Below are positions 44,335 through 46,827 of a stretch of 64,000 bases of DNA, one piece after another. Location: the NCBI GenBank assembly GCA_029976075.1, contig JARKNW010000059.1, forward strand, positions 1-64,000, in the 5' to 3' direction. Numbering within the stretch: position 1 is the stretch's first letter; every line of letters starts with the position of its first letter. The notes under the pieces were generated by a model. It saw only the letters and a program-made list of their open reading frames with translations. It was not told where the DNA came from and searched no databases. Position numbers and translations under genes: made by a program. The DNA comes from Pleomorphomonas sp. Lineage in GTDB: Bacteria; Pseudomonadota; Alphaproteobacteria; Rhizobiales; Pleomorphomonadaceae.

Positions 44335-44514
44335 GCGATACCTCCAGACAGGTCGAACCAAAGGAGGTGTCAGGTTCGCCCAGTGACAGCCTGCATCATC
44401 CAACCTGTCAAACATCTGTCGGCCACATGAGCTGGTTTCGCTCGCGATCACTTGTATCGCCGGTGACGGCGAACCATGATAGGCGGAAAGGACACCGCGT
44501 TTTGGAAGTCAGGA

Positions 44515-44949
44515 ATGCCGCTTCACATCATCAAGCTTTGTGTGGGTGTCGAGACGGTCGAGGAACTCGACCAATGGTATCGTGAGGAAGTGCTGGCCCA
44601 CGCCGCCCGTGGCCTGACCTACGAGCGCATCCACGTCACCCGGATGTTTCCGAAGCGGGTTGACGAAGTCCTTGACGGCGGGTCGCTCTATTGGGTCATC
44701 AAGGGAATCGTGCAAGCGCGGCAGTCCATTCTGGAACTGCGGCCGATACGGGGTGGTGACGGCATCGAACGCTGCGGCATCGTGCTCGATCCGGAACTGC
44801 ATCGCACCGAGTACAAGCCGTGCCGTGCCTTCCAGGGCTGGCGTTATCTTCCAGCCAAGGATGCGCCGGCCGACATCCGTCAGTCCGAGGTGGATGGCGA
44901 TATTCCGGAGGGCATGCGCCGGGCGCTGAGAGAACTGGCGCTGATCTGA
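44515..44949 (+). CDS. DUF1489 family protein
   Basis: MPLHIIKLCVGVETVEELDQWYREEVLAHAARGLTYERIHVTRMFPKRVDEVLDGGSLYWVIKGIVQARQSILELRPI...CRAFQGWRYL: recalled DUF1489 pattern. Confidence 0.88.
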   Translation: MPLHIIKLCVGVETVEELDQWYREEVLAHAARGLTYERIHVTRMFPKRVDEVLDGGSLYWVIKGIVQARQSILELRPIRGGDGIERCGIVLDPELHRTEYKPCRAFQGWRYLPAKDAPADIRQSEVDGDIPEGMRRALRELALI

Positions 44950-45064
44950 TCAGTCTTCTCGTGGGGCGTGCGATTTCGCTTGACGTCGTCTGCTGGCGAT
45001 GGTTTCTGTCCGCCAACCTTGCTTCGGCAGTTTCTGCGGAAGCGTATTTTGTCGGATGATATCC

Positions 45065-45199
45065 ATGTCGTGCTTTCGGCACCTTCGGGCATCCCTGACC
45101 GCCCCGCTTCCGCGGGCCGCGGCTCCGACCATTTTCGGCTTTATGGGCTTTTATGCGTGGCGTCGCCGCTTCGGCGTGGCCGGTTTCGCAGCTGTCTGA
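45065..45199 (+). CDS. putative leader peptide of aroG (44 aa, or 18 aa from the internal ATG at 45143)
   Basis: MSCFRHLRASLTAPLPRAAAPTIFGFMGFYAWRRRFGVAGFAAV: cluster of Phe/Tyr/Trp codons (45134-45187) just before competing RNA hairpins. Confidence 0.55.
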   Translation: MSCFRHLRASLTAPLPRAAAPTIFGFMGFYAWRRRFGVAGFAAV

Positions 45200-45248
45200 C
45201 CGACAGGCCCAATGCGAGAACGAGCCCCGCCGAAAGGTGGGGCTTTTT
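45134..45248 (+). promoter_or_regulatory. Candidate aromatic-amino-acid transcription attenuator upstream of DAHP synthase
   Basis: Aromatic codons, protector hairpin 45164-45176, antiterminator 45170-45180 : 45224-45234 (10 of 11 bp), terminator 45223-45248. Confidence 0.6.
45223..45248 (+). terminator. Intrinsic terminator (attenuator terminator)
   Basis: AGCCCCGCC-GAAA-GGTGGGGCT then TTTT; 9 bp including one G-U pair. Confidence 0.85.
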
Positions 45249-45444
45249 GCATTTACGGTTCCGTGATCGCCTGCCTCCGGCCTGATGCCGGATCTGTCGA
45301 AACGGAACAACTGCCTTCCGTGCCCCCGCCGCGTAAAGCGTATCGGTGGTGGTGCGTCACCGGCGCCTCATATATAAGGCGCCAAATCCTGAAGGCTCCG
45401 CGGCGGTTTCCGCGGGGCGATGCATCGAGAAGAAGAGCCGCGTC

Positions 45445-46827
45445 ATGCCCACCACCTGGAAGCCCGATTCCTGGCGCGCCCTGCCCATCGAGCAGGTGCC
45501 TGACTACCCCGACCAGGCGGCGCTTGCCGCCGTCGAAGCGCATCTTTCGAGCTATCCACCGCTGGTGTTTGCGGGCGAGGCGCGCAAGCTCAAGAAGTCG
45601 CTGGCCAAGGTGGCGGCCGGCCAGGCCTTTCTGCTGCAGGGCGGCGATTGTGCCGAGAGCTTTGCCGAGCATGGCGCCGACAACATCCGCGACTTCTTCC
45701 GCGTCTTCCTGCAGATGGCCGTGGTGCTGACCTATGGCGCGGCCCAGCCGGTCGTGAAGGTCGGCCGCATCGCTGGCCAGTTCGCCAAGCCGCGGTCCAA
45801 GCCGACCGAGACCATCGAGGGTATCGAGCTGCCGTCCTATCGGGGCGACATCATCAACGGCATGGATTTCACGCCGGAATCGCGCGTCCCGGATCCGCAG
45901 CGTCAGGAGATGGCTTATCGCCAGTCGGCTGCGACGCTGAACCTGCTGCGCGCCTTTGCAAGTGGCGGCTATGCCAACCTCGACAACGTTCACAAGTGGA
46001 CGCTCGGCTTCGTCAAGGGCACGCAATCCTCGCGCTATCAGGAATATGCCGATCGCATCACCGAGAGCCTCGCCTTCATGCGGGCCTGCGGCATTCATCC
46101 CGAAAGCGTCTCCGAGATGCGGACGACAGACTTCTATACCAGCCATGAGGCACTGCTGCTGGGATACGAGCAGGCGCTGACCCGCGTCGACTCGACCACT
46201 GGCGATTGGTACGCCACCTCCGGGCACATGATCTGGGTTGGCGACCGCACTCGCCAGCCCGGCCACGCACATATCGAATATTGCCGCGGCATCAAGAACC
46301 CCATCGGCCTGAAGTGTGGTCCGTCGCTGGCGCCGGAAGAGCTGATCCGCCTGATCGATACCTTGAACCCGGAGAACGAGCCGGGGCGGCTGACGCTGAT
46401 CGCCCGCTACGGTGCCGACAAGGTGGGCGACTACTTGCCCGCTCTTATCCGCGCCGTGCAGCGCGAGGGGCGGTCGGTTGTGTGGTCCTGCGATCCGATG
46501 CACGGCAACACGATCACCCTGAACTCCTACAAGACGCGGCCATTCGACCGCATTCTGAAGGAGGTTGGTGCATTCTTCGATGTGCACGCCGCCGAGGGAA
46601 CCCATCCAGGTGGCATTCACATCGAGATGACCGGTCGTGATGTGACCGAATGCACCGGCGGTGCCGTCGCCATTTCTGGCGAACAGCTGTCGGATCGCTA
46701 TCACAGCCATTGCGATCCGCGCCTCAATGCCGACCAGGCCTTGGAACTGGCCTTCCTGGTTGCCGAGCGCATCAAGAAGACGCGCGAGGGGCATCAGCCA
46801 GTCGAATGGGCGATTGCCGGCGAGTAA
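45445..46827 (+). CDS. aroG: class II 3-deoxy-7-phosphoheptulonate (DAHP) synthase
   Basis: [23 protein letters not shown]...[15 protein letters not shown]...[34 protein letters not shown]...[10 protein letters not shown]: plant/class II type. Confidence 0.96.

Follow-up and report, generated by a model that had tools for sequence, protein, structure and literature searches.

DAHP synthase is the entry point of the shikimate pathway, and the aroG locus within the 64,000-nucleotide stretch of DNA analysed here (the window) raises the question of whether transcription of this gene is controlled by a leader peptide. A sequence-only reading of the window had described a complete-looking attenuator upstream of aroG, in which ribosomes stalling at a run of Phe, Tyr and Trp (F/Y/W) codons would keep an intrinsic terminator from forming. 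Attenuation of DAHP synthase as a principle is already known from the aroR leader 5′ of aroF, the DAHP synthase gene of Corynebacterium glutamicum (Neshat et al. 2014, as summarised in PMC11802643). In E. coli, TyrR and TrpR control the DAHP synthase genes aroF and aroH (PMC11802643). Among the main texts of openly readable papers searched, none was found to describe an attenuator at aroG in Alphaproteobacteria. The reading that we favour, at somewhat less than an even chance, is an F/Y/W-sensing attenuator acting on a distal transcript into an aroG gene that also has its own promoter.

Results

Architecture of the aroG leader

Every position and letter given by the sequence-only reading proved correct when the sequence was re-read, and matches to TIGR01358 and PF01474 confirm its assignment of the downstream gene to the class II DAHP synthases (Table 1). 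The F/Y/W-rich short ORF is present letter for letter and reads MSCFRHLRASLTAPLPRAAAPTIFGFMGFYAWRRRFGVAGFAAV up to its stop codon. The upstream neighbour is a DUF1489 protein gene, which also stands directly 5′ of aroG in those leaderless species that were looked at (L011-L015). From terminator to aroG start codon the distance is about 200 nt, as had been stated, compared with about 50 nt at trpEG in the same genome.

Table 1. Features of the aroG locus, with coordinates as window positions
Feature	Coordinates	Strand	Remarks
DUF1489 protein gene, upstream neighbour	44476-44949	+	PF07370, E 3.9e-51
P1 promoter-like block	44980-45009	+	invariant -35-like TTGACG (44980-44985); no good -10 box
5′ hairpin of leader RNA, GCTTC.GCAG/CTGC.GAAGC	45020-45044	+	mean z -4.0, ten species
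Structured 5′ domain	45051-45129	+	contains the proposed start codon (45065-45067)
Leader ORF as proposed	45065-45199	+	44 aa; 45 aa in other clade; open in 10/10 species
Aromatic codon run (F/Y)-G-F-M-G-F-Y-A-W, accessible linker	45134-45160	+	
Candidate antiterminator hairpin	45170-45234	+	stop codons of both clades in its inner loop
Intrinsic terminator with T-run	45222-45249	+	strongest candidate in local terminator scan
P2 aroG-proximal promoter motif, GTGGTG-N18-TATAAG	45349-45378	+	order-wide motif; 3′ of terminator
aroG, class II DAHP synthase	45445-46827	+	TIGR01358, 696.8 bits, 8.8e-210; PF01474

The terminator claimed at 45223-45244, with its T-run, is present and the same element is recovered by a terminator scan. 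It follows the ORF stop codon by 18-22 nt, the order expected of an attenuator. The alternative pairing of TTCGGCGTGGC (45170-45180) with GCCCCGCCGAA (45224-45234) forms 10 of 11 pairs, again as claimed, and the candidate antiterminator hairpin competes with the terminator while holding the ORF stop codon in its inner loop, the mutual exclusion on which an attenuator depends. The proposed protector hairpin stands only in part: CGCCG (45164-45168) and CGGCG (45172-45176) are present, but in most species they form just three to four pairs.

A search for compensatory change in these three stems had been suggested as a check. All three are nearly invariant, and covariation therefore speaks neither for nor against them. 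In the antiterminator 98.3% of cells are paired, 20 of the 25 pairs never vary and, because of this near invariance, none of the 25 shows a change on both sides across ten species. At equilibrium, in an RNA carrying both structures, the terminator fold is better than the antiterminator by 4-7 kcal/mol; antitermination would thus have to be kinetic. Further 3′, at 45256-45310, there is a weak hairpin (TCCGG/CCGGA) with one compensatory change in G013. A few pairs in this region covary but many, several outer ones among them, are broken, and it was therefore left out of the evidence.

Coincidence of the leader components

The background consisted of 40 pieces of 20 kb from one same-genus genome together with the window, 864 kb in total. 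Two of its 50 terminators are preceded by an ORF with at least five F/Y/W in ten codons; one of them is the aroG leader and the other a hydrophobic, probably longer ORF. The cluster precedes aroG in ten species, as would the control codons of an attenuator, and its F/Y/W density was reached in only 0-15 of 1000 dinucleotide shuffles of the 212 nt 5′ of the terminator, depending on the species. Upstream pairing of the terminator 5′ arm brings an energy gain that ranks second of 52 (-14.4 kcal/mol; median -5.7). The pre-terminator fold is more stable than 283-300 of 300 shuffles, depending on the species, and only 0-17 equal it. Pairing probability of the terminator arm is less striking, with 12-21 of 300 shuffles matching the observed value, because GC-rich arms often pair (shuffle mean 0.61-0.64). 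Chance is an unlikely explanation for the ORF, the competing pairing and the terminator occurring together, with odds that are somewhat generous since the tests were chosen after the feature had been noticed.

Distribution of the leader

Within one Hyphomicrobiales genus, DNA matches show the unit at about 45010-45249 to be conserved 5′ of aroG in 12 of the 14 species, and the leader peptide used as query returns the same 12. No DNA match to the leader block was found in the six other family members searched, nor in the other 386 of 398 genomes of the order, scattered matches of 25-40 nt aside. Ten species carry the full unit; G010 and G011 carry parts at or near contig ends. At one locus of G010 (L123, contig C175), the leader's aromatic run directly follows the middle of the DUF1489 gene, either by deletion or by assembly error. 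In other genera of the family, as in G006 and G007, the aroG promoter region follows DUF1489 almost immediately. The absence of the leader from sister species implies that it was either gained in this lineage or lost in the sisters. Nor is it widespread at aroG in Hyphomicrobiales: no F/Y/W ORF (at least five in ten codons) followed by a terminator was found at the 94 aroG loci examined besides the ten that bear the leader. Among known RNA families none fits the leader; the best Rfam match, BjrC68, scores 16.4 bits where the cut-off is 39. A scan of 12 other aroG loci returned only a cobalamin riboswitch.

Leader ORF and aromatic codon run

Conserved aromatic codons had been named as something to look for upstream of related aroG genes, and in the ten leader-bearing species the run recurs with its last seven codons (TTT ATG GGC TTT TAT GCG TGG) invariant, including the five degenerate wobble sites among them. 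Judged from AroG rates such invariance has a probability of about 0.01, and something beyond coding thus keeps these seven codons unchanged. The variable codon at 45134 is always aromatic (TTC, TTT or TAC). A fold of the ten species places the run among the most accessible, unpaired parts of the leader RNA.

Purifying selection on the encoded protein was not detected across the ten species: pN/pS is 0.87 for the leader ORF compared with 0.076 for AroG, variable sites are spread evenly over the codon positions (9/8/7), and profile searches returned no protein family match. Missing protein constraint is expected of a leader peptide, in which only certain codons matter, and equally of a non-coding RNA. 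The alignment is free of indels over 45051-45161, and just 3′ of the Trp codon seven of ten species are without one base, so that the C-terminal part of the peptide comes from a different frame. This difference between clades, like the order-wide promoter motif described below, was absent from the sequence-only reading. The frames of both clades stop in the inner hairpin loop, at the same 18-22 nt from the terminator. The frame change fits a leader in which control codons and stop position alone matter, with the caveat that two of the three frames happen to stop in that loop.

No Shine-Dalgarno sequence was found at the proposed start codon (-3.2 to -3.3 kcal/mol, with a background mean of -3.2), compared with a score of -7.3 kcal/mol for trpL of the same genome. 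The start codon is also mostly paired, within a helix of the 5′ domain that has covarying pairs. An alternative in-frame ATG at 45143 lies inside the open stretch and would yield a peptide of 18-19 residues (MGFYAW...), by its sequence of classical leader length; a Shine-Dalgarno sequence is absent there as well. Translation of the ORF by leaderless or non-Shine-Dalgarno initiation is possible.

5′ RNA domain and sequence constraint

Five helices span 45020-45129 and every pair is kept in all ten species. One pair of the 5′ hairpin is changed on both sides, as are two further pairs in the domain that follows, and the covariation score of the whole region was reached by four of 500 shuffles. 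Because the alignment also supplied the structure, and its species are relatives of one another, this covariation constitutes moderate evidence. Conserved structure combined with an accessible conserved segment is the pattern expected of a small RNA.

Across the ten species the share of invariant columns is 34% before P1, 64% in P1 and 72% in the 5′ hairpin, then 73% in the N-terminal part of the ORF, 79% in the aromatic run and 85-86% in the antiterminator and terminator. It is 42% in the spacer and 73-76% in P2 and the 5′UTR. With the four-fold sites of AroG for comparison (79 of 219, or 36%, invariant), this profile marks the leader unit as a constrained block flanked by near-neutral DNA.

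Candidate promoters of aroG

The TTGACG of P1 is invariant in the 11 species with sequence there, and a sigma-70 consensus scan found no match at P1. On the other side of the terminator lies a motif of aroG genes across the order, [GC]TGG[CT][GA]-N18-TATAA[CG], which occurs in its strict form in 32 of 104 upstream regions against an expectation of 0 from mononucleotide shuffles. In the window this is P2, about 100 nt 3′ of the terminator, and all ten leader-bearing species keep its GTGGTG and spacing. Judged by sequence, P2 is the ancestral aroG promoter. Being 3′ of the terminator, P2 would produce transcripts beyond the terminator's control, and attenuation would then be confined to a second, distal transcript. 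In most leader-bearing species the -10 box of P2 has drifted (TATAAG, TATAGG, TACAAG, TAAAAG); leaderless family members with the spaced motif retain TATAA[CG]. This drift, together with the conserved P1 block at 44980, leaves room for a distal transcript. That a second promoter could lie between terminator and gene had been anticipated, and the candidate motif at 45349-45378 bears this out. An aroG promoter 3′ of 45248, were it the only one, had been named as fatal to attenuation, and this is the chief of the objections set out in advance; a conserved motif does lie there, leaving just the word 'only' between the locus and that outcome.

Discussion

The architecture, the conservation and the aromatic run of the proposed attenuator stand. 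Complete control of aroG is not supported, given the conserved P2 motif 3′ of the terminator, the absence of the element from aroG of other Hyphomicrobiales, and a start codon that is buried in structure and has no Shine-Dalgarno sequence. In the attenuator that we favour, the transcript would originate at a distal promoter near 44980 or from readthrough of DUF1489. With ribosomes slowed at the Phe, Tyr and Trp codons, 45170-45234 would remain free for the antiterminator to fold, and RNA polymerase would continue into aroG. A ribosome that reached the stop codon inside the antiterminator hairpin would break that hairpin open and so allow the terminator to fold. The ancestral P2 would provide a basal level of aroG, to which the attenuator adds a regulated transcript. 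Sequence and its conservation provide the evidence for the parts, for their improbability by chance and for the P2 motif. The scheme further presumes that P1 drives transcription, that the ORF is translated, that polymerase reads through into aroG and that there is a response to amino acids.

This attenuator would plausibly account for the coincidence of aromatic codons, a competing hairpin and an aromatic pathway gene. The rare pairing of an F/Y/W-rich ORF with a terminator, the upstream pairing ranked second of 52, conservation in 12 species, a variable codon that is always aromatic, stop codons in the same loop, the drifted -10 box of P2, the Corynebacterium precedent and a trpEG attenuator in the same genome all argue for it. 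Arguments against it are P2, the lack of a Shine-Dalgarno sequence, the start codon buried in covarying structure, the absence of amino acid constraint, an antiterminator without compensatory change, the poor -10 box of P1, the terminator-favoured equilibrium and the long stretch from terminator to start codon compared with trpEG.

Leader-peptide attenuation appears to be used in the organism, as the window's own genome carries a textbook trpEG attenuator (L198, G000 contig C133, at about positions 955-1134 of that locus), with leader MNGFVALNASWWWRFS, stop codon and terminator. The trpL-trpE(G) attenuator of Sinorhizobium meliloti and its leader RNA rnTrpL (PMC7298713, PMC10117765) offer a second precedent within Hyphomicrobiales, being ribosome-mediated and yielding, on termination, a stable small RNA that acts in trans and encodes an active peptide (PMC7298713). 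S. meliloti trpL differs from the aroG leader in its leaderless 14-aa uORF with consecutive Trp codons, and from the trpEG leader of the window's genome, which has a Shine-Dalgarno sequence and whose terminator is separated from the gene by about 50 nt. The aroR-aroF system, as far as PMC11802643 describes it, likewise places a leader peptide with aromatic codons before a DAHP synthase gene and is proposed to involve ribosome stalling. By the same account, it belongs to an actinobacterium, uses Phe-Tyr-Phe codons, responds to Phe and not Tyr limitation and has been experimentally tested. The aroG leader, described here from sequence, instead has an F/Y/W mix, a class II enzyme and a separate promoter motif below the terminator. 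The pheA and pheST leaders of E. coli also attenuate through aromatic codons (PMC11802643); they sense Phe-charged tRNA, and the genes that they regulate belong to a terminal branch or encode tRNA synthetase. If the attenuator is real, one Hyphomicrobiales genus has added leader-peptide control of DAHP synthase to an ancestral promoter, and its leaderless sister species would let the origin of an attenuator be studied.

The order-wide P2 motif, the weak, structured start codon and constraint at the RNA level make a stand-alone small RNA almost as likely, albeit still doubtful. This RNA would be structured, about 235 nt long and equipped with its own promoter and terminator, and aroG would be transcribed independently from P2. 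The invariant and mostly unpaired GGCUUUAUGGGCUUUUAUGCG would serve it as the site of interaction, and the aromatic codons would be a by-product of this U-rich sequence. The unit does form its own constrained block between near-neutral DNA, its 5′ domain keeps all pairs, three of them with changes on both sides, its linker is unpaired and invariant at wobble sites too, the ORF has no translation signal and aroG has its own promoter motif. Of the features of an independent transcription unit the terminator is clear; the putative P1 has an invariant TTGACG and a poor -10 box. However, a small RNA makes it a coincidence that aromatic codons cluster here, that a hairpin competes with the terminator and that the unit stands before an aromatic pathway gene. 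No Rfam family fits, and a search for perfect 12-nt complements of the linker gave no conserved target: they are single, or shared by one gene in two species, and none is genus-wide.

It is unlikely that the element is no more than an ordinary terminator, ending transcription of DUF1489 and insulating aroG, with an ORF and an alternative pairing that are fortuitous. The DUF1489-aroG order is ancestral with the terminator between the two genes, and GC-rich arms pair upstream in most shuffles too. A terminator alone does not explain constraint over the whole 240 nt or covariation in the 5′ domain, and the leaderless sisters manage without it. Less probable again is a dual-purpose leader RNA whose structured, covarying 5′ domain gates ribosome entry to a short F-Y-W leader peptide or itself senses a metabolite, in this way deciding between antiterminator and terminator and adding regulated aroG transcription while P2 is kept; by analogy with rnTrpL, the terminated RNA could act in trans. 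We consider very improbable a ligand- or protein-sensing cis RNA in which the 5′ domain, not a ribosome, sets the choice between antiterminator and terminator. A covarying structured domain 5′ of the linker and the antiterminator-terminator pair are in keeping with such a sensor, but the element was found in one genus only and resembles no known riboswitch, and a sensor would leave the aromatic codons unexplained. A gene for a conserved small protein, which the open frame in ten of ten species and the indel-free 45051-45161 might suggest, was rejected on the pN/pS of 0.87 against 0.076 for AroG, the even spread of variable sites, the different C-terminal frames of the two clades and the lack of a family match.

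Three minor observations concern aroG and its promoter region. The unusual -35 box of the P2 motif, seen at aroG loci among L011-L109, may reflect a common regulator or promoter type. In the window a perfect inverted repeat, GGCGCCT-N8-AGGCGCC (45362-45383), overlaps the P2 -10 box; it is kept in leader-bearing species if G-U pairs are allowed and may serve as a repressor site or form a hairpin in the RNA. Antisense to aroG, the minus strand holds a 513-aa open frame (45253-46794), which is probably a by-product of GC-rich codon usage.
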